Below are positions 2,585-21,024 of a DNA stretch of 64,000 nucleotides, in pieces; position 1 is the stretch's first letter; each line of letters begins with the position of its first letter. A model generated the notes under the pieces. The model was not told the DNA's origin, made no database searches, and worked only from the letters and a program-made list of their open reading frames with translations. The position numbers were made by a program, and so were the translations under genes. Source of the stretch: Candidatus Latescibacterota bacterium (GTDB taxonomy: Bacteria; Latescibacterota; UBA2968); assembly GCA_022823725.1 (NCBI GenBank), contig JAJEHL010000007.1, positions 1 through 64,000 of the forward strand, given 5' to 3'.

Positions 2585-2819
2585 GCGAATAGAATCCCAA
2601 TTCAATTGGTCCCTGTACAACTTCCTGAACAGAGAAGTAAGAATCCTGTTTATATAACTCCTGTCCAGCCACATAAGCATCGCGGGCAGTGTCGAAGAAC
2701 GCTACAATTTCACCATCGCGCATCAAGGCAAATTTGCCTCCGTGGCTCTGCATCAACTCGGGCAACTGCTTTACAAAAGCATTGTAATTGCGATCCACCT
2801 GCTCTTGTTGTTTGGACAT
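2559..2819 (-). CDS. Small DUF5678-like protein, 86 aa
   Basis: ATG at 2819 is preceded by AAGGAGG. The protein has the form of the DUF5678-type small proteins: an N-terminal helix, then GGKFALMRDGEIVAFF, a DARDAY-like helix and a C-terminal strand ending in a QGPIELGFYSHA segment. I cannot assign a biochemical function. It overlaps the downstream retropepsin-like gene and is divergent from the SulP gene; the two small genes look like one transcription unit. The protein could be a partner or substrate of the protease, but this is only inferred from adjacency. Confidence 0.6.
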   Translation of the reverse strand: MSKQQEQVDRNYNAFVKQLPELMQSHGGKFALMRDGEIVAFFDTARDAYVAGQELYKQDSYFSVQEVVQGPIELGFYSHAVFHRGI

Positions 2820-2967
2820 AATAGCCTCCTTCTTTTTTCAATAATACAAACAAATTGGGGGGATGTATAGCACTTTTACACCCTCCGTGACTTTCTCCTT
2901 GCACTTTCCCTTTGCGTTGAGCAGATTAAAGATCCGGAAAAAAACAACCATACAGTATGGAATACGC

Positions 2968-5003: not shown

Positions 5004-8000
5004 ATGAGACGGACGAGTCTGTTTTTCTTTTTTTTCATAGCTCTGGCATTCTCAGCCAGTGCTGTTTTTGCCGGATCTACCGGTAAAATTTCGGGCAAGG
5101 TCGTGGAGAAATCCACGGGCGAGACCCTGCCCGGTGCCAATATCGTCATTGAAGGCACCACATTGGGTGCAGTCACAGATTCCGATGGCAATTATTTCAT
5201 CATCAATGTGCCGCCGGGTTCTTATACCGTCAGTGCGAGTATGGTCGGCTATCACAAAACAACACAGATCAATGTGCGGGTCTTTATCGACCTGACCACG
5301 ACGATGAATTTCTCCGGCGATTTTGGCCTTGTCGAAGAGACCATTGAACTGGCAGAGATCACGGTGGTTGCCGAACTCCCGGTGGTGCAACCCGATATTT
5401 CCGCCAACGTCGCCAATATCTCCGCGCAGGATGTCGAAAGCCTGCCTGTAACCAGCGTGAATGAAGTCGTGCAATTAGAGGCAGGGGTTCTCGCCTCTGC
5501 CAATGGCGAACTCTCGATTCGAGGCAGTGCTTTTAATGAGATCGCCTTTTCGGTCGATGGCCTGTCCATGCGCGATGGACGCAACAACGAACCGTATTCA
5601 ACGGTGAGTTATACCTCAATCAAAGAAATGAGCGTGCAGTCGGGTGGGTTCAACGCCGAATACGGCAACGTGCGCTCGGGCCTGGTCAATATTGTAACCA
5701 AAGAAGGCGATAAGCGACGCTACAACGGCGATGTGTTGTTGCGACACAGCGGCGCACAGCGCGATTATTTTGGTCCGTTGCCAAACCATCCCAATGGCTT
5801 TTTTTGGCGGCCATTTACAGATCCCGCTGTGAAGAACGTAGGCACCCATTCGCCCGAAAGCCCCTGGGATGTGTACACGCGGCGTCAATATCGAGTCTGG
5901 ACCGGGTGGAATACCATTGTACAGAGGTGGGCTGCCACCCCTACTGATCCGTATCACGGTGTTGGGGTGAAAGACACGGGCGCAGATGAATCGACTTTAC
6001 CAGTCGATGAACTGCAAGTTGATGATGCGGTCATCACAGAGTTGTTCGAGTGGTATCGCCGCAAAGATCTGGAAGTTCGCAATGCGGATTTCGATATCGA
6101 CCTGGGTTTTGGCGGTCCCTTGATTCCGGGATTGAGCGAAAAACTGGGCGGTCTGAGGTTCTTTGCTTCGGGCAAGCGCGAACGCAGAGCCTATATGATG
6201 CCACGCAATATCGATGAATACGAAAACGACTGGGGCCGCGTAAAGGTCACGTCGGATATTCGCAATAACATGAAATTGAGTGTCGAAGCGATGTCGGGCG
6301 AAGAATTTGGGTTGAATCCGAACAAGAGTGGTTTTCCCAACATGTGGCGCGGCAATCAGGAAATGAATCTTAATGATGCTGACCTGATTTGGGCAAATCA
6401 CCACGAGAATACACTTCAGATCAAGCGCAATAATATCGGCCTCAGCTTTTCACACGTGTTGAGCCCCAGAACATTTTACGAATTTCGCGTTCAGAGGATG
6501 CAATCGGACTTTTTGACCGAAAAGTATCCAGACCGCGATTTGACGGCTGTTGAAAAGACCATTCCCCGCAATCCGGACTTCGCGCCTCCCAGTCCGTCTT
6601 TACAAGTTTCAGAGGTCACGCAGAACCACATCGGGTTGACATCTGCACCTGATGATTATTTTATGAAAAATGAAGTCTTTGTTGACGGCCTGTATTTTGG
6701 GGGGCACTGGGCCAATGGACGCGACGACTCTGAAGTCGTAGCCTATACAACGCGTTTTGACATCACAAGCCAGCGCAATCAGGTCGCGCAATTTAAGGCG
6801 GGTTTAGAATGGATCGCCAGTGATTACGATGTCAATCACGAAATTGCACAACCTTTCTTCAAAAACAATGCGGCCCCCAAATACATCTGGCAACGCACCC
6901 CAAACCAATTTGCCGGATACGTGCAGACCAAGCTCGAATTCAATGCGATGATCGCAAACCTGGGGGTGCGTTGGGATCGCTGGAATGGGAGTGGCGAATG
7001 GTGGGTTTATGAGGATTTCTCCGGTGCGTTTGGGCCTAAAATTGGCAAAGACAATCTCGAGGAAGCACTCGAACAGGCGCCTGTTAAGACCCTGTCTTAT
7101 TTAAGCCCGCGCCTGGGTATTTCGTTCCCGGTAACAGCAGATAGCAAATTGTTTTTTAACTATGGGCACTTCCGCCAGATGCTGAACCCACACAATCTCT
7201 TTCTCGTCGATGAAATAAATACGGGCGCAGTCTCTCGGATTGGCAATCCCAATCACCCAATGCCGCGCACGATCAATTACGAACTCGGCTTTGAGCAGAA
7301 TTTGTTTGACCGGTATTTGCTGCGCCTGACCGGATATTACAAAGCCAACAACGACCAGACAATTGGTGTGCGCTACACCAATCTGGACCAAACCGTATCT
7401 TACAACCTTTTTGAACCCCTCAACTACGACGATATCCGGGGCTTTGAAATAACCATTAGAAAGCACAGGGGCAAGTGGTTTGGCGGATCAGTCAACTATA
7501 CGTATCTGCAAACTAAGGACGGCAACTTTGGTCGGCGCCAGATATTTGAAAATCGCTTAGAGCAATCCACTTTTGATGCGACCTCAACACAGCACTATCA
7601 AAGCCGACCCGCCAGCCGGCCCTTCGCCAGATTGTCGCTGGAATTTTACACGCCGCGCGACTTTGGTCCCCAGGTCTCTAAGTTTTATCCCTTGGGCAAG
7701 TGGGATATGTCTTTCGTGGGCAACTGGCGAGCGGGTCAGTACAGCAACTGGTATGGGCCAGAAGGTGGCGATATCCCCGGTTTGATCAGAAATGTCCAGT
7801 ACAAGAGTATCAGGAATATGGATCTGCGCCTGACGAAGCAGTTTGCGATGATGGGCGTCAGAGCCATGTTCTTTTTAGACGTCGATAATGTGTTTAATCT
7901 CAAGCGACTCAATAGCAGTTCTGCCAACCCTGGGCTCGAAGACTGGGAATTCTATATGGTATCCCTGCATTTGCCAGAAGACACATTTGGCGAGTTCGAA

Positions 8001-8360
8001 CCGCCCTATCAGTTCATTCCCGGCAATGACTCGCCCGGCAGTTTCAGAGATTACGGCACGGAGTTTGTGCCCATTGAAATTGTCAATACAGCCAGCGATT
8101 TGCCCGCCAATGGATTGCCCGGCGACGCGGAAATCACAGCTGTGCTGCCCACGGGTCTCGAGCCTGACCGCCGCGTGTTGTGGTATGTTCAGGAATCCGG
8201 TCAGTATCACGAATATCAAAATGGTACCTGGGCGCAGGCAAATCAGGACTTTGTAAATGAAGTCCTGGATAATAAGCTGTATATCGACATGCCCAACAAC
8301 GACACTATCCGGTTCTTGAACCCGCGGCGCGTGCGTTTGGGCTTGCGGTTCTCGTTCTAA
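5004..8360 (+). CDS. TonB-dependent outer-membrane receptor with N-terminal carboxypeptidase-regulatory-like domain
   Basis: An 1118-residue outer-membrane protein. Residues 1-23 are a signal peptide with a poly-Phe core (RTSLFFFFFIALAFSASAVFA). Residues about 28-110 form a carboxypeptidase-regulatory-like beta-sandwich (GKISGKVVEKSTGE..LPGANI), as in SusC-type receptors. A plug domain follows (LPVTSVNEVVQLEAGV, IRGSAFNEIAFSVDGL, GGFNAEYGNVRSG). The rest is a large beta-barrel ending VRLGLRFSF, with the usual terminal aromatic. AGGAGG precedes the ATG. It heads a gene set with a secreted type IX-like cargo protein and a PorV-like protein. It should import a ligand through the outer membrane using TonB-ExbBD energy. 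The ligand is unknown; the nearby symporter and lyase suggest a sugar or glycoside. Confidence 0.93.
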   Translation: MRRTSLFFFFFIALAFSASAVFAGSTGKISGKVVEKSTGETLPGANIVIEGTTLGAVTDSDGNYFIINVPPGSYTVSASMVGYHKTTQINVRVFIDLTTTMNFSGDFGLVEETIELAEITVVAELPVVQPDISANVANISAQDVESLPVTSVNEVVQLEAGVLASANGELSIRGSAFNEIAFSVDGLSMRDGRNNEPYSTVSYTSIKEMSVQSGGFNAEYGNVRSGLVNIVTKEGDKRRYNGDVLLRHSGAQRDYFGPLPNHPNGFFWRPFTDPAVKNVGTHSPESPWDVYTRRQYRVWTGWNTIVQRWAATPTDPYHGVGVKDTGADESTLPVDELQVDDAVITELFEWYRRKDLEVRNADFDIDLGFGGPLIPGLSEKLGGLRFFASGKRERRAYMMPRNIDEYENDWGRVKVTSDIRNNMKLSVEAMSGEEFGLNPNKSGFPNMWRGNQEMNLNDADLIWANHHENTLQIKRNNIGLSFSHVLSPRTFYEFRVQRMQSDFLTEKYPDRDLTAVEKTIPRNPDFAPPSPSLQVSEVTQNHIGLTSAPDDYFMKNEVFVDGLYFGGHWANGRDDSEVVAYTTRFDITSQRNQVAQFKAGLEWIASDYDVNHEIAQPFFKNNAAPKYIWQRTPNQFAGYVQTKLEFNAMIANLGVRWDRWNGSGEWWVYEDFSGAFGPKIGKDNLEEALEQAPVKTLSYLSPRLGISFPVTADSKLFFNYGHFRQMLNPHNLFLVDEINTGAVSRIGNPNHPMPRTINYELGFEQNLFDRYLLRLTGYYKANNDQTIGVRYTNLDQTVSYNLFEPLNYDDIRGFEITIRKHRGKWFGGSVNYTYLQTKDGNFGRRQIFENRLEQSTFDATSTQHYQSRPASRPFARLSLEFYTPRDFGPQVSKFYPLGKWDMSFVGNWRAGQYSNWYGPEGGDIPGLIRNVQYKSIRNMDLRLTKQFAMMGVRAMFFLDVDNVFNLKRLNSSSANPGLEDWEFYMVSLHLPEDTFGEFEPPYQFIPGNDSPGSFRDYGTEFVPIEIVNTASDLPANGLPGDAEITAVLPTGLEPDRRVLWYVQESGQYHEYQNGTWAQANQDFVNEVLDNKLYIDMPNNDTIRFLNPRRVRLGLRFSF

Positions 8361-8398
8361 GAAGATTTTTGAATTGCGACTTATCAGGAGAATTTGTA

Positions 8399-10573
8399 AT
8401 GAACAGATTGTTAAAACCGCTGGTCGGAACCGCTTTTGCACTTGTAGCTCTGGTCTTTTTTGGTCAGCCAACCGAAGTGCAGGCGCAGGCAGAACTAATG
8501 TGGCTGGATGTGGGTGATTATCACTATCGATACGCATCGACAGGCACAGAGCCTTCAATCACAAGCCCCCCATTTCGGGCACGTGTGAAATACTGGCCCG
8601 GTATTTATGCTCGAGAAGGTGGCACGCATGTGCGCAGCCGCCATTATATCGGAGTAAAAGATTTTATCGATGAAAATGGACAAGCCTGGCCGTTCAAAGT
8701 CGCCCGTGCGGGACCTCGCGTATTTGACCTGGGCGAACACTTTGCATTGCCCATGGAACTGATTGGCAAGTTTGATAAACCCGACGTGTTTGTCGATGGG
8801 TTTCAATCTTTTTCCCGGCCCACAGTATTGACCCGCGTCGATCCTTCTATTCCATCAGATCGCATGATCATTCGCGGTGCCCATAGCAATGTGGGCATTA
8901 CCTGGGAAGAGAAGATATACGCATTCTCAACCCCGTATCACGACGACTATCACATCCGAGAAATGACCTGGACCAATACGGGCAATGTCGATGCCGATGA
9001 AGAGATCGAATTGCCCGATCAAACCGCGAACGAGATGATGTTGTCCTTTGCCGCTAAAGAGCATCTCTGGGGCCCTCGCGGGGTTACGGGTGCGGGTGTC
9101 TCCGGTACAATGTGGGATTATGTGGGCGACGGCAAAGAAGATGTGGGCAAATGGGAAGGCATACGCGCCACGCTCGGCTGGATCGGCAATGGTACGAATG
9201 TGTCCTTCCTGAACCGCATTGGAGGTCCTATCTGGCGAGGTGGGCGCGGAAATGCGAATTATCGGATTACAGAAGGCGATTCCATCGGTCGGCTCGGTGG
9301 TGCTTATATGCTGACCCGCGCGATCTTGCACGCAGATACAAGCCCAACAGATCCGACGAATGATCAGGGCCAGCCCCGAACTACGGGCTTCACCCGAGGC
9401 GGCGACTCGATTACCAACCCGTCGTTTGGCGATGCCGAACAGATGGCAGACACCTACCATTTTATGCATCCGGACCTGAGCTATGCCGAGTATGGCAACC
9501 CGGGCACCGATGGGCACTTTTTCCCGCACGAAGCCGACCGTTCAGCGCCGCCGGAGCCTGCGGGTCCTTTCGATTCGGAATCGTGGTACGAACGCATGGG
9601 GGCGCAAACTGATGTCTCTCGCATGAGGAGTGGAGGTATGGTGCCAGCGTTTGCTTTTGGTCCCTACACACTACCTCCGGGCGAAAGTGTCAGTATCGTC
9701 TGGCTTGAAGGCATGTATGGGCTGGACCGGGATGTGGCTGTTGCAGTGGGCACGGCTTACAAAAATTCGGGTTATGACGATACACTGCCCATTACCTATG
9801 AGGGCCAGACCCACACGAAAAATCGCTGGGTGCTGGGCACCCGGGATTCGATCTATCACATGATCCGCAGAGCCACGGCAAACTGGCAATCGGGCTATAA
9901 TATTCCGCATCCCCCACTGCCACCCAGAGTTTTTAATGTGCAGTCTGGTTCTGATCAAATTGTGCTTTCCTGGGAGACCTTTGCCAATGCCAATCACACG
10001 GGTTTTGAGATCTGGCGTACGCGCAATTTTTATGAAGGCAATGTGGATGACCGGTGGGAATACCAATTGATCGCCACCCTGGGGGCAGAGGCACGCGAAT
10101 ACGCAGACACGGACGTGGTGCGCGGCATCAGTTATTTCTACTATATCCAATCCGTAGGACAGGTGAACAGCGATGGAACTGGACTCACGCCCACCGGCAT
10201 GGTGATGAAAAGCAGCCGGTATTATACGCAGACCTATGATCCCGCGTTCTTGAAACGCCCGGCTGGCACCTCGCTGATGGAAGTGCGCGTTGTACCAAAT
10301 CCATACGTACTGGAAGCCGACCAGAATATTCGATTCCCAGACCAGCAGGACAAGCTGGCATTCTTCGAAATACCCGGGGAATGCACCATCCAGATTTTCA
10401 GCGAACTGGGAGAATCGATCTTCACCATTGAGCACACAGACGGCACAGGGGATGAATTTTGGAACCTGACCACAGAATCGAATCAGGTGATTACAAGTGG
10501 CATTTATTTTGCCGTGATCACAGACCTTCAGACCGGCGATAAGATAATCAAAAAATTCGTCGTTATTCGTTAA
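8399..10573 (+). CDS. Secreted protein with fibronectin III-like and type IX-like C-terminal sorting domains
   Basis: 724 residues from the ATG at 8399, which has CAGGAG upstream; an in-frame ATG 30 bases earlier lacks one. Residues 1-31 are a signal peptide ending QAQA. The central part (about 32-500) is not recognised. At about 505-590 a fibronectin III-like domain is visible (VLSWETFANANHTGFEIWR). The last 95 residues (from EVRVVPNPYVLE to IIKKFVVIR) match the Por/FlgD-type C-terminal domain, with the usual SGIYFAVI strand. Such proteins are typically exported by the type IX system or anchored at the surface. It lies between the TonB receptor and a PorV-like gene and may bind or process the receptor's ligand. 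Confidence 0.75.
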   Translation: MNRLLKPLVGTAFALVALVFFGQPTEVQAQAELMWLDVGDYHYRYASTGTEPSITSPPFRARVKYWPGIYAREGGTHVRSRHYIGVKDFIDENGQAWPFKVARAGPRVFDLGEHFALPMELIGKFDKPDVFVDGFQSFSRPTVLTRVDPSIPSDRMIIRGAHSNVGITWEEKIYAFSTPYHDDYHIREMTWTNTGNVDADEEIELPDQTANEMMLSFAAKEHLWGPRGVTGAGVSGTMWDYVGDGKEDVGKWEGIRATLGWIGNGTNVSFLNRIGGPIWRGGRGNANYRITEGDSIGRLGGAYMLTRAILHADTSPTDPTNDQGQPRTTGFTRGGDSITNPSFGDAEQMADTYHFMHPDLSYAEYGNPGTDGHFFPHEADRSAPPEPAGPFDSESWYERMGAQTDVSRMRSGGMVPAFAFGPYTLPPGESVSIVWLEGMYGLDRDVAVAVGTAYKNSGYDDTLPITYEGQTHTKNRWVLGTRDSIYHMIRRATANWQSGYNIPHPPLPPRVFNVQSGSDQIVLSWETFANANHTGFEIWRTRNFYEGNVDDRWEYQLIATLGAEAREYADTDVVRGISYFYYIQSVGQVNSDGTGLTPTGMVMKSSRYYTQTYDPAFLKRPAGTSLMEVRVVPNPYVLEADQNIRFPDQQDKLAFFEIPGECTIQIFSELGESIFTIEHTDGTGDEFWNLTTESNQVITSGIYFAVITDLQTGDKIIKKFVVIR

Positions 10574-10588
10574 GAATGGAGTATTTCA

Positions 10589-11644
10589 ATGACCAAAAAA
10601 TTTCTTACTTATGTCGCGCTGAGTCTGATTTGTCTGACGCCGCTCTATGCACAGGACCCGGTGGATACGACAGATCCAGACGATCTTCCCGTGCCCGAAC
10701 CGGGACAGGATCTTCCGCGCGAACGCCGCGCACAAGCGGGCTTTAAGTTTTTGAGTGTATCGCCCGATGCGCGTGCCGCCGCCATGGGCGATGCGTATTC
10801 CGCATTGAGAGTGGGGGCATCGGCGATGTTTTACAACCCCGCATCAATGGCGTATGCCACTCGCAAATTTCAACTCTCAGCCGGTCAGATCCAGTGGATT
10901 GCAGATGTGACCTACAACATGGGTAGTGTCGCATTGAATACAGATTGGGGCGTTTTCGGGTTGTCAATGGTTTCCGTCGATTACGGCGATTTTGAGCGCA
11001 CCATTCGCGCAGACAACGAAAAGGGATTCCTCGACGTGGGCACGTATAGCCCATCTGCCTGGGCAATCGGACTCGGTTATGCTCGCGCAATTACCGACCG
11101 CTTTTCTGTGGGCGGAAATATACGCATCGCCAAGCAATCCTTCGGCAATGTTCCCGTGGGGCTTGAAGGTGCAGAACCTGTAAATAAATCTTTTGACGAG
11201 CGCTCGACCATTGTCGATTTTGGCGTACTCTACTGGACGGGATATAAGAGCCTGACATTGGCGCTGAACACGCGAAATTTCTCTCAGGAAAACAAGTATA
11301 GCGAAGAGAGTTTCGAATTGCCGCTGACATTCCGCATGGGGTTGGCGATGGATCTGATCGATCTCACGGATATGGACAAGGATACCCATTCCATAATTCT
11401 ATCGGTAGATACCGAGCGCCCGCGCGACTTTTCCGAACAAATCAAGATCGGGGTGGATTATACGCTTATGAAAACCCTGTCTTTGCGCGCCGGATATGTG
11501 ACGCCAACCGATGAGCAGGGTATCTCGCTGGGCGTCGGTTTTGGCCGCGACCTGGGCAGCGTGGATCTGCGCGTGGATTATGCGTACACCGATTTTGGCG
11601 TATTTGACACTGTCAACCGCTTGACGCTTCAGGCGGGCTTTTAG
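10589..11644 (+). CDS. PorV/PorQ-family outer-membrane protein
   Basis: 351 residues with a signal peptide (residues 1-22, ending LYAQ). The diagnostic N-terminal segment is present: AGFKFLSVSPDARAAAMGDA followed by AMFYNPASMA. The rest is a FadL-like beta-barrel ending RLTLQAGF. In Bacteroidota, PorV shuttles type IX cargo to the attachment complex; other FCB lineages carry many such paralogues beside secreted proteins. The gene follows the sorting-domain protein by 15 bases and ends at a strong terminator, so the receptor, cargo and PorV-like genes form one operon. Specific pairing with the upstream protein is inferred. Confidence 0.85.
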   Translation: MTKKFLTYVALSLICLTPLYAQDPVDTTDPDDLPVPEPGQDLPRERRAQAGFKFLSVSPDARAAAMGDAYSALRVGASAMFYNPASMAYATRKFQLSAGQIQWIADVTYNMGSVALNTDWGVFGLSMVSVDYGDFERTIRADNEKGFLDVGTYSPSAWAIGLGYARAITDRFSVGGNIRIAKQSFGNVPVGLEGAEPVNKSFDERSTIVDFGVLYWTGYKSLTLALNTRNFSQENKYSEESFELPLTFRMGLAMDLIDLTDMDKDTHSIILSVDTERPRDFSEQIKIGVDYTLMKTLSLRAGYVTPTDEQGISLGVGFGRDLGSVDLRVDYAYTDFGVFDTVNRLTLQAGF

Positions 11645-11733: not shown

Positions 11734-13704
11734 ATGGCAGAATCCACACAAAATATTCAGACCCAAAAGCCGAGTCACAGGGGTTTGCGTACGTATCGAA
11801 CCGCTGTTGCGTCGGTCGCCATGATCCTGGTCAGTGTGCTGTGGAATGAATGGATGCCGTATTACACATCGGGATCCAATATCAGCCGGAGCCATTTTCC
11901 CGTAGCACTCTACTATCCCTTCTTGGTCTTGTGTATATACAACTTGCTGGCAAATCATCGGCGGTCTGCCTGGGCATTGACGCGGTCGGAATTGCTGGTG
12001 GTCATGGCGTCTGGGCTGGTCGGCATCTCGGTGTCTTACGACGGAATCAGCGGACACCTGATCGGCGTGGTAGCCGCGCCTTATTATTTTGCCTCAACGG
12101 AAAACGGCTGGACCACGTACTTGCTCGAACACATCCCGAACTGGCTGGTGCCGACCAATGCGGGCGAAGAGATGACGCGGTTTTACGAGGGCGGAAAGGG
12201 AACATTCCCCTGGCGCGTATGGGTCGCACCGATATTCTGGTGGACGTGTTTTTTGGGCGCGATGGGATTTGCGGTATTCAGCGTCGTGGTGATTTTGCGA
12301 AAGCAATGGGTGGATTACGAACGGTTGGCATATCCGCTTGTCGAGGTGGGAAGTCTGCTGACCGAGACCGAGCCGGGTGGCACGCTGGAAAAAATGCTTC
12401 GGTCCCCATTATTCTGGATCGCGTTTGGCCTTGTGATGGCGTTAAAGCTGTGGAATATCGGATCTTATTTTTCGCCTGCATTCCCACATATCTCCATTGA
12501 GGGAATGAACTGGCGGGCTTTTCCCGATTTTCCCGCATTGCCCTTTCGCCTCAGTTTTTACGCCATAGGTTTTGGCTATTTTGCGCGATTAGATGTGTTG
12601 TTCAGTGTGTGGTTTTTTATCGTCTTGACGGCATTTCAGATCTATGCCTCAAATATTTTTGGATATCCCCTCGGTTCATCCAGTCTGCACTGGGAAAATG
12701 AGCTATTAAACTGGCAGAGCATGGGCGCACTCATTTTTCTCGCGGTGTGGGGCTTGTGGATGGCGCGCGCACATTTGAAGGCCGTGTGGCGCAAAGCGTG
12801 GGACCCGAGTTGTGAAATAGATGACCGCGGAGAATTGTTATCATATCGCACGGCTGTATTTGGCCTTGTGCTCTCGCTCGTATTTGCAACGTGCTGGCTG
12901 GTCGCAACCGGCATGGCAGTGTGGGTTGCGATAGTATTTTTAATTCTGGCAATGTTGTTATTTTTGGGCCTGGCACGCGCTGTGTCCGAGTTGGGTCTGG
13001 TCTATGCCTATTATCGGTTGGAACCAAATGACGCGGTCGTGCAGGCATTCGGCTCGGCATCTATCATGGGGATTTCGAGCATTACCGCGCTGGCATTTAT
13101 GCGGGTATTCAATTTTTTTCCCGATATCGGCAAAGGCTTTTTGATGCCGTCGTTTTCCCAGGCGGTGAAAGCAGTGGATAAGACCGTAGCCCCCCGGCGA
13201 ATCACAGGCGTGATCTGGGCGTCGCTCGCCGTGGGCTTTGTGATTTCGATTGTCAACACGCTCTACTTGAGTTATGAATACGGGGCTTATAATCTGGGCA
13301 ATATGGGCCTCAAACACGTTGGCCCGAGGGCATTTGATTTTGCGATGAACGCAATCCGCAATCCCCTGGGTCTCGGCGGCGATGGCCGCGTGATGTGGGC
13401 GGGAGTTGGCGCCGGTACAATGGCGATTTTGACCGTCATTCGCTACTGGATCCCCGCCTGGCCCCTGCATCCAATTGGTCTGGCCATGCAAGGGAACTAC
13501 GGCGTGAGTAAAACCGTATTCTCGGTATTTATCGTGTGGGCAATCAAAGTTGTTGTGATGAAGATGGGCGGTGTGCAGCTATACGAAAAAGGAAAACCGT
13601 TTTTCATTGGCCTGCTGGCAGCGCAAGCGTTCAGCACGGGGCTGGTATTTGTCATAGATTGCATCTGGTTCCCCTTGCAGGGACATAATGTACACAATTT
13701 TTAG
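11734..13704 (+). CDS. DUF6785/DUF6784-type polytopic membrane protein (copy 1)
   Basis: 656 residues with about 12-14 hydrophobic helices, starting with a helix that contains VLWNEWMPYYTSGSNISRSH, which resembles the N-terminus of the DUF6785 family. Other marks are the KQWVDYERLAYPL loop and the conserved C-terminal GLAMQGNYGVSKTVFS segment. The function is unknown; the size and topology resemble a transporter of the oligopeptide-transporter type, but this is a guess. It is followed seven bases later by a phosphotriesterase-family gene. A second copy (16404-18362) has the same architecture and a nearly identical C-terminus. No Shine-Dalgarno is obvious. Confidence 0.75.
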   Translation: MAESTQNIQTQKPSHRGLRTYRTAVASVAMILVSVLWNEWMPYYTSGSNISRSHFPVALYYPFLVLCIYNLLANHRRSAWALTRSELLVVMASGLVGISVSYDGISGHLIGVVAAPYYFASTENGWTTYLLEHIPNWLVPTNAGEEMTRFYEGGKGTFPWRVWVAPIFWWTCFLGAMGFAVFSVVVILRKQWVDYERLAYPLVEVGSLLTETEPGGTLEKMLRSPLFWIAFGLVMALKLWNIGSYFSPAFPHISIEGMNWRAFPDFPALPFRLSFYAIGFGYFARLDVLFSVWFFIVLTAFQIYASNIFGYPLGSSSLHWENELLNWQSMGALIFLAVWGLWMARAHLKAVWRKAWDPSCEIDDRGELLSYRTAVFGLVLSLVFATCWLVATGMAVWVAIVFLILAMLLFLGLARAVSELGLVYAYYRLEPNDAVVQAFGSASIMGISSITALAFMRVFNFFPDIGKGFLMPSFSQAVKAVDKTVAPRRITGVIWASLAVGFVISIVNTLYLSYEYGAYNLGNMGLKHVGPRAFDFAMNAIRNPLGLGGDGRVMWAGVGAGTMAILTVIRYWIPAWPLHPIGLAMQGNYGVSKTVFSVFIVWAIKVVVMKMGGVQLYEKGKPFFIGLLAAQAFSTGLVFVIDCIWFPLQGHNVHNF

Positions 13705-13710
13705 AGTGCA

Positions 13711-14739
13711 ATGATTACTCGAAGAACATTTATACAACAAAGCCTCGCTACTGCGGGTGCATTGGCAATTGCACCGTCGGCTCTGGCGTCAAAACCACAG
13801 GTGATGACTGTGACGGGACCAATAACACCCGAGCAGATGGGGTTCACCCTCCCCCACGAACACATCATGTCCATTTTTGGTGGACAACCGGTCAAAGTGG
13901 CGCAATACGACAAAGAAAAATTATTCGCCAGGGTTATCCCCTATCTCAAAATGCTAAAAGTATTTGGCGTGCAAACGATTTGTGAATGCACGGGGGCTTA
14001 TTTTGGACGGCGCGTGGATTTGCTCCGGCGCATCTCACGAGAAACCGGGATGCAAATACTGACCAATACCGGATACTTTGGCGCAGCACACGATCGCTAT
14101 GTGCCTGCACACGCCTTTGAAGAAACGGCTGATCAAATTGCCCAACGCTGGATTGATGAGTGGGAAAACGGGATTGATGGGACGGATATTCGCCCGGGAT
14201 TTATCAAAATTGGCGTTGACCCCGGCATGCCATCCGACATAGACAAAAAACTCATTTTAGCAGCGGGCAAAACCCATCAAAAAACGGGTCTAACAATTGT
14301 CTCGCACACAAGTGGCAGCACAGATGCGGCCGTCGAGCAGGTGGCGATGCTCGAACAAATGGGTGTACCCCCAGAAGCCTGGGTCTGGGCACACGCACAA
14401 CGCGTCAAAGATCCCGCCGACCTGACCCCCATAGCGCAGGCAGGTGCGTGGATCGGACTGGATAGTATTCGCGACGAAACCCTCAATGAACATCTCGATG
14501 TGCTGCGCCACATGAGAAGATTTGGCGTGTTGCCCCGGGTTTTGCTTTCTCACGACGGCAATTCATTTGGATATGGCGACCGTCCTTTTAAGCCTTATAA
14601 TGCCATCTTTGACCAATTTATCCCATTAATGCGAAAAGCGAACTTTACCGATGAAGACATTCACCAGATCACAGTCAAAAATCCACAAGAAGCATTTGCC
14701 ATTCGGGTTCGCGAAGTACAGCAAGATGACTACGAATAA
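13711..14739 (+). CDS. Tat-exported phosphotriesterase-family metal-dependent hydrolase
   Basis: 342 residues. The N-terminus ITRRTFIQQSLATAGALA is a twin-arginine signal, so the folded enzyme should be exported. The amidohydrolase-fold metal ligands are all present: H49 and H51 (TLPHEHIMS), K166 as the likely carboxylated bridging lysine (GFIKIGVDPG), H199 (SHTSGST), H228 (WAHAQRV) and D282 (LSHDGNS). Family members include phosphotriesterases and lactonases; lactone or phosphodiester hydrolysis is plausible but not decided. It sits between two DUF6785-type genes and upstream of a GPH symporter, which favours a role in uptake and use of a sugar-derived compound. Confidence 0.85.
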   Translation: MITRRTFIQQSLATAGALAIAPSALASKPQVMTVTGPITPEQMGFTLPHEHIMSIFGGQPVKVAQYDKEKLFARVIPYLKMLKVFGVQTICECTGAYFGRRVDLLRRISRETGMQILTNTGYFGAAHDRYVPAHAFEETADQIAQRWIDEWENGIDGTDIRPGFIKIGVDPGMPSDIDKKLILAAGKTHQKTGLTIVSHTSGSTDAAVEQVAMLEQMGVPPEAWVWAHAQRVKDPADLTPIAQAGAWIGLDSIRDETLNEHLDVLRHMRRFGVLPRVLLSHDGNSFGYGDRPFKPYNAIFDQFIPLMRKANFTDEDIHQITVKNPQEAFAIRVREVQQDDYE

Positions 14740-14754
14740 CAACCGGAGAGACTC

Positions 14755-14841
14755 ATGAACCGACGCGAATTTATCAAACAAACTGCCGTGGCGACCGTTG
14801 CAATGCCATCGCTCCTTCGGGCACAATCAGATATCGCGTGA
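14755..14841 (+). pseudogene. Orphan Tat signal peptide, remnant of a deleted gene
   Basis: After a GGAGAG ribosome-binding site, ATG at 14755 opens a 28-residue reading frame that is a complete twin-arginine signal (MNRREFIKQTAVATVAMPSL) and stops at once after the cleavage region. It looks like the 5' end of a gene similar in type to its Tat-exported neighbour, whose body has been lost. A second short frame follows in another phase (14846-14941). Confidence 0.6.
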
Positions 14842-14845
14842 AGGC

Positions 14846-14941
14846 ATGCGCTTTGATGGGTGTTTTACCTCCACGTCAATTGCCCATGTAAATCCGGCAT
14901 CGGCAAAAAATAAGCTGTATCGAGAAGTTCAAGATAAATAA
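14846..14941 (+). pseudogene. Possible 3' fragment of the deleted Tat-signal gene
   Basis: A 31-residue frame, MRFDGCFTSTSIAHVN...LYREVQDK, has an ordinary amino-acid mix and lies +1 relative to the preceding Tat-signal fragment. It ends just before the ribosome-binding site of the symporter gene. I read it as the other end of a gene that suffered an internal deletion. It might instead be a chance frame; I do not recognise the family. Confidence 0.3.
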
Positions 14942-14957
14942 AAGACAGGAGAATTTT

Positions 14958-16394
14958 GTGTCCACAAGTAAAACAGATCAAAAATCAGCACCCTGGGGCG
15001 AGGGCGAACCCATTGGACGTGAGTATCCGTCGATACCACTGCTCGAAAAAATCGCTTATGGCGTCGGTGTCTTGCCGATGAATACAAGTGTCAATTCGAT
15101 CAAAAAGCTCTCAGGTCCCATTTTTAATATTACGCTGGGCATGCATCCATCTAACGTTGGCACTGTCCTGTTGCTCTCCCGGGGCTGGGATGCGATTACC
15201 GATCCCTTTATGGGATGGCTTTCGGACAACACAAAATCTCGTTGGGGGCGGCGCAGACCCTATCTCTTGTTGGGCGCTATTTTGACAGCCATTGGCTACG
15301 CAATCATTTTGAATGTGCCCCAGGGACTGAGTCAAGACGCACTGTTTGCGTATTTTCTAATTGGCAGCCTGGCGCTCTATACCTGTGTCACCATTTTACA
15401 GGTATCCTACAACAGCCTGGGCTTTGAACTGAGCCACAACTATCACGAGCGAACAAATATCTTTGCGTACCGCTCGTTTTTCCAGCAGATCAGCACCATT
15501 CTCGTGGGCTATCTCTTCTATTTTTGTACACTCGATATTTTTGGCGACACCATGACGGGAGCCAAATATGTCGGCATTGGCGTTGGACTGGTCATTTTTT
15601 TATTTTTGTTGCCCACTGTTTTTCTCGTGCGCGAAGGCCACTCAGAACAGGCGGCCAAACAGGAAAAAGTACCCGTCTGGTGGGCTATTAAAACAACCCT
15701 GAAGACCAAACCATTTCTGGTTCTCAGCGGCTTGACAGTCGTAACCATTTTTGGTGGTAATTTCACACTGGCATTAGGGCCTTATGTCAATATCTATCAC
15801 GTTGCTCAAGGCGATGTAAAATTTGGAGCCGAGATACAGGGACACGCAATTCTCATCGGAACCATCGTGTCCTTCGCCGCCATTCCCTTATTGGCCTATT
15901 TGTCCCCTCGGATCGGAAAGATCAAAACCCTTGGTATTTCAATCTCCTCCCTTCTGCTGGGTTCTATTTTGAAGTGGTTTTGCTATACGCCAGCAATGCC
16001 CTATTTGCAACTCATCGTACAGCCTTTTATCCGCATCGGCGAAATGGGCTTCTGGCTCATTATTACGTCGATGAAAGCCGATATCTGCGATTGGGACGAG
16101 TGGAAAACCGGCTTTCGACGCGAAGGCATGTACGGTGCGGCAACGGGCTGGTTTCAAAAAGTGACACAAGCGACCACATTCGCGCTCGGGCAGGGATATA
16201 TTCTGGCAATCATCGGATTTGACGCTACAAAAGGTGTGGCACAAGATCCTGGCGTAATGTTCTGGATGCGCTTTCTCTTTGCCGTATTGCCCGCGATCCT
16301 GGCCATAGCGGGATTGATCTTGTTGAAATTTTATGAAATCGACGACGAAAAAGCCAAAGAGATCAAGGCAGATCTGGATAAACGAAATAACTAA
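14958..16394 (+). CDS. GPH-family (MFS) sugar:cation symporter
   Basis: 478 residues, GTG start with ACAGGAG eight bases upstream. The glycoside-pentoside-hexuronide:cation symporter signature is clear: SRGWDAITDPFMGWLSD followed by RWGRRRPYLLLGA, then about twelve helices and FMKADICDWDE-like residues in the second half (SMKADICDWDEWKTGFRREG). Members such as MelB and UidP bring in glycosides, pentosides or hexuronides with Na+ or H+. Placed between the Tat hydrolase and the second DUF6785-type gene, it probably carries the product of periplasmic hydrolysis across the inner membrane. Confidence 0.9.
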   Translation: MSTSKTDQKSAPWGEGEPIGREYPSIPLLEKIAYGVGVLPMNTSVNSIKKLSGPIFNITLGMHPSNVGTVLLLSRGWDAITDPFMGWLSDNTKSRWGRRRPYLLLGAILTAIGYAIILNVPQGLSQDALFAYFLIGSLALYTCVTILQVSYNSLGFELSHNYHERTNIFAYRSFFQQISTILVGYLFYFCTLDIFGDTMTGAKYVGIGVGLVIFLFLLPTVFLVREGHSEQAAKQEKVPVWWAIKTTLKTKPFLVLSGLTVVTIFGGNFTLALGPYVNIYHVAQGDVKFGAEIQGHAILIGTIVSFAAIPLLAYLSPRIGKIKTLGISISSLLLGSILKWFCYTPAMPYLQLIVQPFIRIGEMGFWLIITSMKADICDWDEWKTGFRREGMYGAATGWFQKVTQATTFALGQGYILAIIGFDATKGVAQDPGVMFWMRFLFAVLPAILAIAGLILLKFYEIDDEKAKEIKADLDKRNN

Positions 16395-16403
16395 GAGAAA
16401 ATC

Positions 16404-18362
16404 ATGGCAGAGCGATTCGAACAACTTTCAGAAAAAACACCCGTGCGGGCGGTGACAACGCGGTCGGTAATTGCGTCAATAGTGGTCATTACTGTAAGCG
16501 TACTGTGGAATGAGTGGATGCCGTACTATACGTCGGGATCGAACATCAGCCGCAGCCATTTCCCGATGGCGTTTTTCTTTCCGTTTTTGATCGCGTGTAC
16601 ACTCAACCTGGCATTGAATCACTTGCGAGATGGTTGGGGGCTTTCGCGATCGGAATTGCTGGTGGTTCTGGGATCGGGCTTTGTGGGGATCGCGCTGGCT
16701 TACGACGGGTTGACCGGCCACTTCTTCGGCGTTCTGGCAGCCCCTTATTATTTTTCATCTGTGGAAAATGGATGGGGCTTTATACACGACACCATCCCCA
16801 CATGGCTCGCCCCGTCGAATGCCACCGGTGAAATGACGCGGTTTTTTGAAGGCGGAGGCGGGTCCCCCCCGTGGCGCGTGTGGGCAGTACCTGTTTTCTG
16901 GTGGATGTGTTTTTTTGGCGCAATGGGCTTTGGGGTATTTTGCCTGGTCGTAATTTTGCGAAAGCAATGGGTGGATTACGAGAGATTATCGTACCCACTT
17001 GTCGAAGTCGCACAATCTCTGGCAGAGACAGAAAAGGGCGGCGGACTGGAAAAAACTTTTCGCTCTCCCCTATTCTGGATCGCATTTTCTCTGGTCATGC
17101 TTTTGAAATTGTGGAATATCGCGTCTTATTTCACCCCTGCATTTCCGCATATAGATATAGAAGAAACGCTGTGGCAACCGATCCCAGATTTTCCCTGGAT
17201 GGTAAATCGCCTGAGTTTCTACGCCATTGGGTTCGGGTATTTTGCGCGCCTGGATGTACTCTTCAGCGTGTGGTTCTTCATTATTTTGACGGCGTTTCAA
17301 GTATATGTATTCAATATCTTTGGATATCAAATCGGCGCTGCAACCCGGCACTGGACGAGCGATGCCCTGGGCTGGCAAAGCATTGGCGCATTGATCTTTT
17401 TATCCGCCTGGGGATTGTGGATGGCGCGCGCGCATTTGAAGGCCGTGGTGCGAAAAGCCCTGTATCCCAATTGCGAGGTGGATGATAGCGGCGAGTTGCT
17501 GTCCTATCGCATGGCGGTGTTCGGCTTACTGGGCGCATTCGCATTTGTCTCAGCGTGGCTATATACGGCGGGCATGCCCTTGTGGGTGGTACTCTCCTTT
17601 CTCATTTTGGCGATGTTGCTATTTCTGGGCCTTGCCCGCGCCATTGCAGAATTGGGCCTGGTCTATGTGTATTATCGGATTCAGCCTCACGATGCCGTAG
17701 TGCAGGCATTTGGTTCGAGTATGGTCGGGCTTTCCGGCGTGGTAGTGCTCGGGTTTATGCATGTGTTTAATCAGTGGCCCGATATTGGCAAGGGATTTTT
17801 GATGCCGCCGTTCACACAAGCGGTAAAAGCGGTAGATAAGGTCGTCAGTCCGCGGCGAATTACAGCGGTGCTGTGGCTGGCACTGGCACTGGGTTTCACC
17901 ATCTCAATAGTAGATACGCTGTACCTGAGTTATGAATACGGAGCCTATAATCTGGGCAACATGGGGATGAAGAAGACGGGACCTGTGGCGTTTGATTTTG
18001 TGATCACAGAAATCCGGAATCCCCTGGCGCCCGGCGGCAATGGCAGGGTCATGTGGGCATTCATCGGCATGGGACTGATGGCGATTTTGACAACCGTTCG
18101 CTACTGGGTGCCGTGGTGGCCTCTGCACCCAATTGGCCTGGCTATGCAGGGGAACTACGGCGTGAGCAAGACGGTCTTTTCAATTTTTATTGTCTGGTCA
18201 ATCAAAGCGGTTGTCATGAAAATGGGCGGCGTACAATTGTACGAAAAGGGAAAGCCGTTTTTCATCGGCTTGCTGGCAGCACAGGCGGTGAGCACGGGCC
18301 TGGTATTTATCATAGATTGGTTCTGGTTCCCCCTGCAAGGACATAATGTACACAATTTTTAG
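16404..18362 (+). CDS. DUF6785/DUF6784-type polytopic membrane protein (copy 2)
   Basis: 652 residues, collinear with copy 1 at 11734-13704. Shared landmarks are VLWNEWMPYYTSGSNISRSH, VVILRKQWVDYERLSYPL, MARAHLKAV and the identical end FPLQGHNVHNF. Differences are spread along the length but are fewest in the last third. It begins nine bases after the symporter gene. Two copies flanking a hydrolase and a symporter suggest a duplicated transport module; the substrate and mechanism are unknown. Its 3' end is convergent with the lyase gene with only 22 bases between them. Confidence 0.75.
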   Translation: MAERFEQLSEKTPVRAVTTRSVIASIVVITVSVLWNEWMPYYTSGSNISRSHFPMAFFFPFLIACTLNLALNHLRDGWGLSRSELLVVLGSGFVGIALAYDGLTGHFFGVLAAPYYFSSVENGWGFIHDTIPTWLAPSNATGEMTRFFEGGGGSPPWRVWAVPVFWWMCFFGAMGFGVFCLVVILRKQWVDYERLSYPLVEVAQSLAETEKGGGLEKTFRSPLFWIAFSLVMLLKLWNIASYFTPAFPHIDIEETLWQPIPDFPWMVNRLSFYAIGFGYFARLDVLFSVWFFIILTAFQVYVFNIFGYQIGAATRHWTSDALGWQSIGALIFLSAWGLWMARAHLKAVVRKALYPNCEVDDSGELLSYRMAVFGLLGAFAFVSAWLYTAGMPLWVVLSFLILAMLLFLGLARAIAELGLVYVYYRIQPHDAVVQAFGSSMVGLSGVVVLGFMHVFNQWPDIGKGFLMPPFTQAVKAVDKVVSPRRITAVLWLALALGFTISIVDTLYLSYEYGAYNLGNMGMKKTGPVAFDFVITEIRNPLAPGGNGRVMWAFIGMGLMAILTTVRYWVPWWPLHPIGLAMQGNYGVSKTVFSIFIVWSIKAVVMKMGGVQLYEKGKPFFIGLLAAQAVSTGLVFIIDWFWFPLQGHNVHNF

Positions 18363-18384: not shown

Positions 18385-20907
18385 CTATAGCCCCTCGTCC
18401 ATTCCCGCGTCTTGCAGAGCACCCAACAAATGGGGCACGCCGAAAAACAGCAGGCTCAAGTACATGGGGCTCATTCCCACTGCGCCGCGCCTTTTGGGAT
18501 CGTCGCTCCAATCCTGCGATTCGGCCAGGCGGCGCAGCAGGTGCTGGCCCACCGCCAAATAGCCCCGCTCGCCTGTCAGCCTATACGCATAGCTCAGGTG
18601 GCGACACAGCACCCCGCCGTAGCGCTGCTTCCATGCCATTTCGGGATCGAAAACGCCAGGCCCACCGCAAAACCAATCCACAGCTCGCAGATAGCATTTT
18701 GCCACATCGGTCCGACCGGTCAGTCGGTGCAGCAATTCGAGACCGATCATTAAGTAGTGGGTCTGGTAGCCCTTTTGGTCGGCGTAGGGCAGCACGTGTT
18801 TGCCCGCGGCAGATGCCCCGCCAAGAGCCTTGTGCTCAGCCGGGGTAAAAGGTGTTGCAGTGCCCATTTCCACGGCCAGGGTCGTGCCTTCGGTGGCCAT
18901 GCCGTAGGGTGCTTGGTCGGGCAGCCGGTCGGGAGTGGAAATCTGAAAACGCTTGTGCCAACTGCCGTCGTCGTTCTGACCTCGGGCGATAACCTGAAAA
19001 ATTTCTTCGGCGCGCTGTTTGAAACGCGCTTGACCCGTTAGTTCCCACAAGTACAGCAGGCCGCGCAAGGTGTTGGCAATGCTGCGCAAACTAAAGGAAA
19101 AACGGGGATCTTCGCTCCAGCGATAGCGCAGGAAAAATTCGCCAGCTTCCCCGAGCACCTCCAATGTCCGGTGGTCGCCCGTCAAGTAGTAATAGTCGAT
19201 CCAGTTGTCGATAAAGGTGTGCGAAGCGCAAGGCTCGTCGCCAAAATGGTCAATACTGTGCCGAAAACAACCGCCGACCCAATACGGCCTGAGCGGGTGG
19301 TAGTGGCAGGTATCGACATCCATCGAGTGCCGAGTCATGGCCTCACCGAGACGGAACCAACGCCTTGCCCCGCTGCGCAAATACTGGATCCACACCCCGT
19401 GGCGCGGGTCCCACTCGCTGTTGCACCAGCCCCACCGGCCCCGGAAGCGCCAGTCGCCGGTCGATTCCTCCCAGGCCACGAGTACATCGCCCCAGTCAAA
19501 AAAACCGCGCCAGCGGTTGACTTCAATGCTGCGCGCCATCCACTCGAGAAAGCCGTCGAGCATGCGCTCGGAGTGCGGGAAGGCATCTGCCGCGCGGGCT
19601 GCAAAGCCGCCAGCGACCTCGCAGTGGGCCATCCAGCCGGGATCAACCGCGACGTGTGGCCAATCGAGCAACGCCTTCAGCCGCTGGGGGGCTTCTTCGC
19701 TGGTATTGCGTTGGAAATAATCGATGAAAAATTCCGAGGTTTTGGCCGTACCCAGGCCATCGCTGTACACGCCTTCTCCCTCGTGCCAGGCCACTTCCTC
19801 GGCATAGCGCCTGAAATCCAGTCGCCCACCGTCCGGATCTTTCCACAAAAACACGTCGATTCCCCCTCGATCCACGCCCAGGGCTTTGGGGTATTCCTCA
19901 GCCATATAGCGCAACGCCACCCCAACCCCGGCTTCCTCGCCCTCCAACACAGCCCACCCGCCGGCCCGTTCGCCTTCTGCTATCCTCTCTGTGCGTCCGC
20001 CGCGCCGCCGCTCCAGACGGAAGTGGCGATCCTGGCGCTGGGCCAAAAGCAAGCCTTCGTCCTCACCCAGAACACCTTCCATCCATCGATTTCCACCCAG
20101 CCGGTAGCGCCGTTTTCCCTCCCCCACCACGGGGATCCGCACAGCCAGTTCCCGCAATTCGGTCTGATTTGGATCGCAGGCCACCACTACGGTGTGCAGG
20201 ACTCGCAAAAAGGCGTGGCCAGCAAAGGCGTATATCCGCGTCACAAAACGAAAGGGTTGGTAGCCGACGTAGTGGTGCATGGGCGCCTCGGATTCCAGGG
20301 CGCCTTCGCAGCGGATCACCGCCCGCAGAGGCCCGGATTCTTCCACCTGGACCCGGTACGCGCTTTCTCCCAGCGATGCCCGGCACATCCCGCCCATGCC
20401 GTAGATCTGCCGCTGGGTCTCCCCGATTTCAAAAGCCTCGCAAATATTGGCCCAACTGTCGCCGCCTTGCGAACTCACAGCGACTTCTTCGACAAAGCCA
20501 TCGGCCTCCTGCCTCCCCAATGATACCGCGTGTACCAGGCCATAACGCCGCCGACTCACTGCAAAGCGCAGGGGGCCGGTACACACGACAATGCGCTCGT
20601 CGCTCTCGCTTATTTGCAGTCGATTTGCCTGAATGGTGCGAGGGGCTTCGCCGGCATAACACAAGTGGTAAACCGCCGATCCGACCACGTCGGCTTGAAA
20701 ATCGACCAGGACCCACTTGATACTGCCGTCGAGCCAATGGCTCAATGGACGACTTTGCAGGGGTACAGCCTGTCCCCGAGCATCTTCCAACCACAAATCG
20801 GCGCATTTGGCTACAGCCCCTTGTGGCAGGGGCACGCCTCTGGTCACAGGCCACGCACGGCGTTCGATCCCGCTCTCTTCCTGGACAGTCAATGTTAGAC
20901 GTTGCAT
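18385..20907 (-). CDS. PL26-like exo-rhamnogalacturonan lyase / YetA-like RIFT-barrel protein
   Basis: 840 residues from ATG 20907, with GGAGG five bases upstream. The N-terminal part (about 1-200) resembles the RIFT-barrel domain of PcRGLX/YetA proteins (RRAWPVTRGVPLPQGAV, SIKWVLVDFQADV). A middle beta-sandwich follows, and the C-terminal half is an alpha/alpha-toroid of repeated helix pairs (DNWIDYYYLTGDHRTLE, HLSYAYRLTGERGYLAVGQHLL). PcRGLX-type enzymes remove disaccharides from rhamnogalacturonan. No signal peptide is seen, so it may act inside the cell on imported oligosaccharides. The gene is visibly richer in G+C than its neighbours, hinting at transfer. Confidence 0.72.
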   Translation of the reverse strand: MQRLTLTVQEESGIERRAWPVTRGVPLPQGAVAKCADLWLEDARGQAVPLQSRPLSHWLDGSIKWVLVDFQADVVGSAVYHLCYAGEAPRTIQANRLQISESDERIVVCTGPLRFAVSRRRYGLVHAVSLGRQEADGFVEEVAVSSQGGDSWANICEAFEIGETQRQIYGMGGMCRASLGESAYRVQVEESGPLRAVIRCEGALESEAPMHHYVGYQPFRFVTRIYAFAGHAFLRVLHTVVVACDPNQTELRELAVRIPVVGEGKRRYRLGGNRWMEGVLGEDEGLLLAQRQDRHFRLERRRGGRTERIAEGERAGGWAVLEGEEAGVGVALRYMAEEYPKALGVDRGGIDVFLWKDPDGGRLDFRRYAEEVAWHEGEGVYSDGLGTAKTSEFFIDYFQRNTSEEAPQRLKALLDWPHVAVDPGWMAHCEVAGGFAARAADAFPHSERMLDGFLEWMARSIEVNRWRGFFDWGDVLVAWEESTGDWRFRGRWGWCNSEWDPRHGVWIQYLRSGARRWFRLGEAMTRHSMDVDTCHYHPLRPYWVGGCFRHSIDHFGDEPCASHTFIDNWIDYYYLTGDHRTLEVLGEAGEFFLRYRWSEDPRFSFSLRSIANTLRGLLYLWELTGQARFKQRAEEIFQVIARGQNDDGSWHKRFQISTPDRLPDQAPYGMATEGTTLAVEMGTATPFTPAEHKALGGASAAGKHVLPYADQKGYQTHYLMIGLELLHRLTGRTDVAKCYLRAVDWFCGGPGVFDPEMAWKQRYGGVLCRHLSYAYRLTGERGYLAVGQHLLRRLAESQDWSDDPKRRGAVGMSPMYLSLLFFGVPHLLGALQDAGMDEGL

Positions 20908-21024
20908 ATATTCCTCCGCTTGTGAACACACCGGGTATTTTAAAACAGCTTTTAAAAAAAGGCCAACATTTTACACACTGCATTTGGACAAATGGCAGTA
21001 CACAAACGCAAACCTTTCTTGTAC

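Follow-up and report, generated by a model that had tools for sequence, protein, structure and literature searches.

DUF6785 membrane proteins of Latescibacterota: a predicted OPT/YS1 fold and a probable role in nutrient uptake

The PULs of Bacteroidota are SusC/SusD-like uptake loci, in which a TonB-dependent receptor lies beside a surface protein, degradative enzymes and inner-membrane transporters. Metal chelates, too, are often taken up by TonB receptors. The Latescibacteria described in 2015 resemble the bacterium considered here in their sulfatases, their many secondary transporters and their degradation of pectin/rhamnogalacturonan and algal glycans; the parts of that description on which we draw name symporters, ABC, PTS and TRAP systems, and differ from the present account in that DUF6785 goes unmentioned in them (PMC4454575). 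Searches of the literature by name found nothing on DUF6785 or DUF6784, nor was an assay of any DUF6785 protein found.

A second point of comparison is barley Yellow Stripe 1 (HvYS1; PDB 7wsr, 7wst), a transporter of the OPT/YSL family. According to the sections of its structural description used here, HvYS1 is built from core and scaffold domains with inverted repeats, works by an elevator-like, proton-coupled mechanism and carries Fe(III)-phytosiderophore; a DALI comparison that its authors made in 2022 gave no significant structural homologue for its domains (PMC9691689). A further paper, as far as its consulted text goes, deals with POT rather than OPT proteins (PMC7340319).

The window analysed is a stretch of 64,000 nucleotides from Candidatus Latescibacterota bacterium (assembly GCA_022823725.1, contig JAJEHL010000007.1, positions 1-64,000, forward strand). 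The locus of interest comprises the following features:

5004..8360, + strand: TonB-dependent receptor with a CarboxypepD_reg-like domain (PF13715, 69.6 bits) and a Plug domain (PF07715, 38.7 bits)
8369..10573, + strand: large exported protein with a T9SS-like C-terminal domain (PF13585 CHU_C), adjoining the PorV gene
10589..11644, + strand: PorV/PorQ-family outer-membrane protein (NF033709, 192.6 bits, above the cut-off of 90)
11734..13704, + strand: DUF_A, a DUF6785+DUF6784 membrane protein with a predicted OPT/YS1 fold (Pfam; AlphaFold2; Foldseek; VIA)
13711..14739, + strand: PTE, a phosphotriesterase-family metalloenzyme with a twin-arginine leader, MITRRTFIQ... (PF02126, 164.9 bits)
about 14755..14938, + strand: remnant of a Tat-signal sulfatase gene (tblastn pieces of an intact orthologue)
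14958..16394, + strand: GPH-like MFS_2 symporter with a GTG start (PF13347, 234 bits)
16404..18362, + strand: DUF_B, a second DUF6785+DUF6784 protein, separated by 9 nt from the GPH gene (Pfam; 70% identity to DUF_A)
18385..20931, - strand: PcRGLX-like (rhamnogalacturonan-exolyase-like) protein (PF21346, PF21345 and PF19501, all above their cut-offs)

As in a Bacteroidota PUL, a TonB receptor thus stands beside a candidate surface protein, enzymes and transporters. Judged by its sequence the receptor is SusC-like, yet it scores 55.2 bits on the SusC/RagA model TIGR04056, far under the cut-off of 368, and the place of SusD is occupied by the T9SS-type and PorV-family proteins, no SusD having been noticed there. 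The T9SS-type protein reaches 23.1 bits on CHU_C, slightly under the cut-off of 27, and its predicted model (mean pLDDT 38.7) is confident in the C-terminal part only; in many DUF6785 loci a member of its family follows the TonB receptor.

The preliminary description of this DNA had recognised two DUF6785-type proteins bracketing a Tat hydrolase and a GPH symporter, and both the coordinates and the Pfam matches bear this out. DUF_A and DUF_B score 361 and 359 bits on PF20581 (DUF6785; cut-off 25) and 72.2 and 72.3 bits on PF20580 (DUF6784; cut-off 26.4), so that the architecture it described as common to them is indeed shared, with 70% amino-acid identity over 656 residues. The AlphaFold2 model of DUF_A has a pLDDT of 87.6 and a pTM of 0.89. 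Its two best Foldseek matches are both HvYS1 (E 3.3e-9 and 1.5e-8, TM 0.62/0.67), followed by a match at E 0.022 with a probability of 0.12. VIA aligns it with HvYS1, to which it is 12-15% identical in sequence, at Z 22.4 over 536 residues (rmsd 4.0), the match covering residues 16-652 and hence both DUFs, so that a YS1-type fold extends over the full length of the predicted model. DUF6785 and DUF6784 are accordingly predicted, on the strength of this model, to make up together a single polytopic membrane protein of the OPT/YSL fold. It might be objected that a common helical arrangement is being matched and that the true fold is unrelated, given the weak direct sequence similarity to OPT and the warning attached to VIA that middling Z values are common for helical proteins; with Z 22.4 over 536 of 656 residues and the next row at only 4.2, we regard this as very improbable.

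A direct sequence link between DUF6785 and OPT was sought in three ways, each negative: none of 30 paralogues matched OPT when searched against Pfam at E 10, the cut-off of PF03169 not being reached; a profile of these 30 searched against PDB sequences returned two designed proteins only (E 0.16-0.17); and hhalign of the DUF6785 profile against true OPT proteins gave nothing. Against true OPT (phylum members L120-L125), the C-terminal and N-half regions scored at chance, being equalled or exceeded by 13 and 35 of 100 shuffles. An indirect link is offered by an OPT-like bridge family (A6; L126/L127), against which the DUF6785 profile of residues 81-260 scores 25.0, a value that none of 100 column shuffles attained, while the C-terminal region is at chance there also (11/100). 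The genome scan places the bridge family above the cut-off of PF03169 (E 6.8e-9 and 5.2e-13), although hmmscan of the bridge protein L127 at E 0.1, at odds with that scan, returned no Pfam family. Genome scans with PF03169 also gave sub-cut-off matches on DUF6785 members (E 9.7e-5 to 8.8e-4), and all four of those checked were DUF6785. Membership of the same fold class as OPT would fit these results.

The family is large. The window's genome holds 36 DUF6785 genes and seven relatives hold 30-57; of 60 genomes sampled across the phylum, 55 carry the family. Within the same genome it outnumbers each of five other transporter families counted (1 MFS_2, 27 MFS_1 rows, 19 ABC permease rows, 8 SSF rows and 3 DctM).

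The cassette of TonB receptor, T9SS-like protein and PorV recurs in association with this family. Of 14 PorV genes, 6 are followed within 10 kb by a DUF6785 gene on the same strand, where 0.47 would be expected (P 3.5e-6), and 3 are so followed within 2 kb (P 1e-4); both P values assume random gene placement. The other eight PorV genes had no DUF6785 gene in the 10 kb downstream. The same 10-kb test gave 0/14 for ABC, 0/14 for TRAP, 1/14 for SSF and 1/14 for MFS_1. On a tree of 69 sequences kept from 133, one per 85% identity cluster and each cluster scored as having the module if any member did, the cassette stands upstream of DUF6785 in several separate clades. The set entered for the tree included 34 of the 36 genes of the window's genome; one gene each on L019 and L034 had not been recognised as an open frame, and an incomplete copy at the end of L023 was excluded. 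Most DUF6785 genes are without the cassette.

The enzymatic neighbours are less regular. PTE and the GPH symporter, proposed in the preliminary description as partners that should recur beside DUF6785 in other genomes, were found at 8 and 6 of 108 DUF6785 loci, respectively, all within the orthologous group of the window; being confined to that one group, they fail, by that description's own test, as partners for the family at large. Each has a single copy in the genome, so that 34 of the 36 paralogues are without both. No other enzyme family emerged as a general partner. Among 122 of the 147 genes within 2.5 kb of DUF6785 (25 longer than 700 aa were left out), compared with a random choice of 122 more distant genes (from 156 of 174), Pfam tallies showed no clear difference for Sulfatase (6 vs 4), PhyH (6 vs 6), AP_endonuc_2 (5 vs 6) or GFO_IDH_MocA (4 vs 4). 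When all 147 and 174 genes were compared as BLAST clusters, none of the 14 clusters listed reached p < 0.05; the PorV cluster counted 3 vs 0 (p 0.095). Two operons, that of the window and one at L028 (SSF, GFO_IDH_MocA, sulfatase and RraA-like genes beside DUF6785), combine sugar-type enzymes with a second, sugar-type symporter. Of the role in one transport or degradation pathway first suggested for the two paralogues, the setting therefore survives, as both sit in a transport and degradation neighbourhood, and the family-wide partnership with PTE and GPH does not.

A fold does not show function. Taking fold and neighbourhood together, the DUF6785 family probably serves nutrient uptake, its members being most likely inner-membrane, probably proton-coupled importers of degradation products. 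For the locus as a whole, the explanation that we favour, and consider rather likely, makes DUF_A and DUF_B the inner-membrane OPT-fold importers of a TonB-T9SS-PorV uptake route. The receptor, the T9SS-type surface protein and PorV would pass substrate into the periplasm, where the Tat-exported PTE-family protein, and the sulfatase where intact, would trim it, after which the products would enter the cell through DUF_A, DUF_B and the GPH symporter. From the fold, DUF_A and DUF_B are predicted to be elevator-type transporters with core and scaffold domains like those of HvYS1, and by analogy import may be coupled to protons. HvYS1 has a triad of protonatable, proton-linked Asp; the conserved acidic residues seen here include Glu123, Glu196 and Glu367. 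The neighbours lead us to guess at glycan-derived or esterified/lactone compounds as the substrate class. A bolder version, in which DUF6785 forms a large branch of the OPT superfamily in bacteria and is the main importer of glycan fragments in Latescibacterota, within a new TonB-T9SS-PorV uptake locus replacing SusC/SusD, is possible but doubtful. The family might instead import metal chelates or peptides as classical YSL/OPT proteins do, its enzyme neighbours being incidental: its sole solved fold relative carries Fe(III)-phytosiderophore, TonB receptors often serve chelates, and no enzyme family is enriched beside DUF6785 over farther genes. Thirty-six copies are many for chelates, however, and the sugar-type enzymes and symporters of the window and L028 operons point elsewhere, which makes this reading unlikely in our estimation. 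If the favoured explanation holds, a family without assigned function turns into one of predicted transporters whose mechanism can be tested, the YS1 fold gains a bacterial branch, and models of nutrient uptake in these uncultured bacteria must include DUF6785.

The arrangement of the locus had been read as a duplication around a functional cassette, followed by gene conversion at the 3' ends. PTE and GPH do lie between the two paralogues in no fewer than 6 of the 8 orthologous loci, in the order A-PTE-(sulfatase)-GPH-B, and a seventh locus, broken by contig ends, fits. In the eighth (L045, on a chromosome that is a single contig), 1.9 Mb separate DUF_A-PTE from GPH-DUF_B, the latter pair being kept together at L162, away from DUF_A; they are thus two separable units, which contradicts the cassette duplication unless that genome arose by a split. 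The 3' DNA, thought to be nearly identical, is so over roughly the last 20 codons (pS 0.17) and not over codons 571-630 (pS 0.71), and the shared C-terminal residues number 12 instead of eleven. Identity is 83% in the final 287 nt, compared with about 70-74% in the rest, and synonymous sites are near saturation along most of the gene's length. Across the final 63 nt, A and B agree at only 76-86% at the four further loci where both copies were measurable; the window's A agrees with the A copies of those loci at 92-94%, and its B with their B copies at 84-98%. The 3' ends are therefore closer to their own orthologues than A is to B in 4 of 5 loci holding both. The window is the fifth: there the last 63 nt fail to separate A from B (92%, against 73-94% for its A and seven A copies), and the two are identical over their final 26 nt, a stretch that runs to three bases beyond the stop. 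As this A-B value is no lower than most A-A values, a conversion tract of about 26 nt may exist in the window's genome; otherwise gene conversion is judged unlikely. Duplication around the cassette with subsequent conversion consequently appears improbable.

We prefer to see A and B as products of an old duplication, and the A-PTE and GPH-B units as having been joined, or later split, by rearrangement. That the joined order is ancestral and was split in the genome of L045, a matter of locus history compatible with the uptake route favoured above, is a serious prospect that falls a little short of probable: seven of the eight loci show or fit the joined order, but the comparison is confined to these eight loci themselves, and L045 is the most divergent of them (90%).

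The genes between the paralogues deserve a closer description. PTE is probably periplasmic; in alignment with E. coli PHP (4lef/1bf6) its metal-ligand positions are conserved or conservatively replaced, HEH, two His and Asp aligning with what we take to be the ligands of the binuclear centre and Lys replacing the Glu of PHP. The GPH symporter, whose best solved relative is MelB, meets Pfam MFS_2 and scores 175.5 bits on TIGR00792, below the cut-off of 231.35. Besides these two genes, the 2.7 kb between DUF_A and DUF_B contains a sulfatase pseudogene that the preliminary description had missed: tblastn pieces correspond to residues 1-26 (96%) and 460-480 (81%), with a middle stretch at 42%, partly out of frame, and the gene is intact (480-483 aa, matching PF00884) in three orthologous loci.

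Two genes for DUF6785+DUF6784 proteins, DUF_A and DUF_B, lie where the preliminary description had placed them, and both score far above the Pfam cut-offs. Their products are 70% identical in amino-acid sequence, and they stand in the following setting:

5004-8360, + strand, upstream of DUF_A: TonB-dependent receptor
8369-10573, + strand, upstream of DUF_A: large protein (T9) whose C-terminus carries a weak T9SS-type domain
10589-11644, + strand, upstream of DUF_A: PorV-family protein
11734-13704, + strand: DUF_A
13711-14739, between DUF_A and DUF_B: phosphotriesterase-family gene (PTE) with a twin-arginine leader (PF02126, 165 bits)
14958-16394, between DUF_A and DUF_B: MFS_2 symporter gene (GPH; PF13347, 234 bits)
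16404-18362, + strand: DUF_B
downstream of DUF_B, − strand: PcRGLX-like protein

Seven orthologous loci (L041-L047) have been found, all in MAGs labelled Latescibacterota or Latescibacteria apart from one whose label is Gemmatimonadota. The most economical reading of the locus is import: the TonB/T9/PorV cassette would pass a substrate through the outer membrane, Tat-exported enzymes would trim it, and the DUF6785 proteins, with their predicted OPT fold, would together with the second symporter carry it across the inner membrane. Proton coupling and the nature of the substrate are suggested by analogy with barley Yellow Stripe 1 (YS1), as described in PMC9691689, and by the neighbouring genes.

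AlphaFold2, given an alignment of 47 sequences from the window and the named MAG loci, produced a model of the DUF6785+DUF6784 protein with mean pLDDT 87.6 and pTM 0.89. A Foldseek search of the PDB with this model returned two confident matches, both YS1. VIA-align superposed 536 residues on YS1 (Z 22.4, rmsd 4.0, model residues 16-652; next row Z 4.2), and because this match spans both annotated domains, DUF6785 and DUF6784 appear to belong to a single OPT-type transporter. As a prediction, the OPT/YS1-type fold is near certain, and common descent with OPT is likely. The sequences support this link indirectly. Compared directly with OPT proteins, the DUF6785 profile scored at chance. A possible bridge at the sequence level is an OPT-like family of 683-685 residues (L126 and L127, the latter at C7, ~130000-132300, in the window's own genome), with which the profile (residues 81-260) aligned co-linearly at a score reached by 0 of 100 shuffles. 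When the genomes were scanned with PF03169 this family exceeded the cut-off, whereas hmmscan of L127 gave no OPT match. The OPT model also picked up OPT-like proteins in open frames of 1078-1186 residues (L128-L131); the L128 frame combines PDZ domains with the OPT match, and the other three were likened to it solely because their OPT matches sit at the same positions and their frames are of similar length.

DUF6785 genes are abundant: the own genome has 36 copies, and seven relatives gave 44, 40, 49, 30, 35, 57 and 37 matches, fragments counted. They are present in 55 of 60 genomes sampled across Latescibacterota, in a survey that counted up to 21 copies per genome, and in none of 14 control genomes. 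Of the 562 relatives in the named-genome scan, the best 80 were kept. The window's genome has 27 rows for MFS_1, 19 for ABC permeases, 8 for SSF, 3 for DctM and 1 for MFS_2 among its other transporters. A search of open-access full text yielded no paper naming DUF6785 or DUF6784.

Among 133 DUF6785 genes surveyed for partners, in 108 loci, 13 have a PorV-like gene immediately upstream and 4 more have one gene between; where the contig is long enough, the order upstream is TonB receptor, T9-type protein, PorV. In the own genome, DUF6785 follows on the same strand within 2 kb of 3 of 14 PorV genes (P 1e-4) and within 10 kb of 6 (P 3.5e-6), both values assuming random placement; four other transporter families in the same 10-kb test gave 0, 0, 1 and 1, and 8 of the 14 PorV genes lack a DUF6785 neighbour within 10 kb downstream. 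When the cassette label was mapped on a tree of 69 representatives, its 8 labelled rows required 7 changes, against 7.7 in shuffles, and the pairing has therefore been gained or lost many times. Close to the window in layout is the cassette locus L028, where downstream of cassette and DUF6785 come SSF symporter, zinc dehydrogenase, PhyH, aldo/keto reductase, RraA-like, GFO_IDH_MocA and sulfatase genes. Other cassettes in the own genome occur without DUF6785 in the stretch fetched (e.g. L151, L152, L154, L156), and the cassette therefore has uses apart from DUF6785. PorV-family proteins are numerous in this genome; 14 loci were used.

PTE-like genes occur at 8 and GPH-like genes at 6 of the 108 loci, all within the window's orthologous group; the own genome holds one PTE and one MFS_2. 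Since these partners are confined to one group, the partnership proposed in the preliminary description does not extend to the family, but within the group it is stable. TPR proteins of 491-1134 residues lie beside or near several own-genome DUF6785 genes (L009, L014, L022, L034, L039), with no significant enrichment of that family near DUF6785 genes (6 near, 2 far; p 0.149). When gene order was compared across the eight orthologous loci, window included, DUF_A-PTE-GPH-DUF_B was contiguous in six (the window, L041, L042, L043, L047 and L044, whose contig stops within DUF_B), and L046 is consistent with it, though interrupted by contig ends. At L045, on a single-contig chromosome, DUF_A has PTE after it but not GPH; GPH and DUF_B (88 and 91% identical) form a pair beside a PhyH gene at a distance of 1.9 Mb. 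DUF_A-PTE and GPH-DUF_B are two units rather than one bracket.

The duplication around a functional cassette that had been proposed is made unlikely by this separation and by synonymous differences between DUF_A and DUF_B, which are near saturation along most of the gene (pS 0.71 at codons 571-630) and drop in the last 20 codons only (pS 0.17). Each copy is 90-98% identical to its own orthologues and ~71% to the other; the sequences thus place the duplication before these species. Over the last 63 nt, in the five genomes with both copies measured, DUF_A and DUF_B agree at 92% in the window and at 76-86% in the other four; window DUF_A is 87-94% identical to six other A copies (exception L045, 73%) and window DUF_B 84-98% to four other B copies. 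By these values and the pS profile, the 3′ likeness is mostly protein conservation. Conversion tracts, also raised earlier, are not borne out in general, but one of ~26 nt may exist in the window genome, where over this short stretch DUF_A matches DUF_B as closely as its own orthologues. Four proximal DUF6785 pairs, each within 12 kb, occur in the own genome, where such pairs are common, and several relatives have DUF6785 genes in tandem, two or three together (L071, L099, L102, L106, L108, L118).

Between PTE and GPH, three loci (L042, L043, L047) carry an intact Tat-type sulfatase of 480-483 residues, the L042 copy matching PF00884. In four others it is reduced to pieces (window 14755-14938, L041 ~13130-13550, L044 ~3023-3750, L046 ~2794-3078). 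Because the internal deletions differ in each, the remnants suggest separate losses, although the broken copies may instead be MAG assembly errors. A direct repeat of ~12 nt apparently flanks one of the window deletions.
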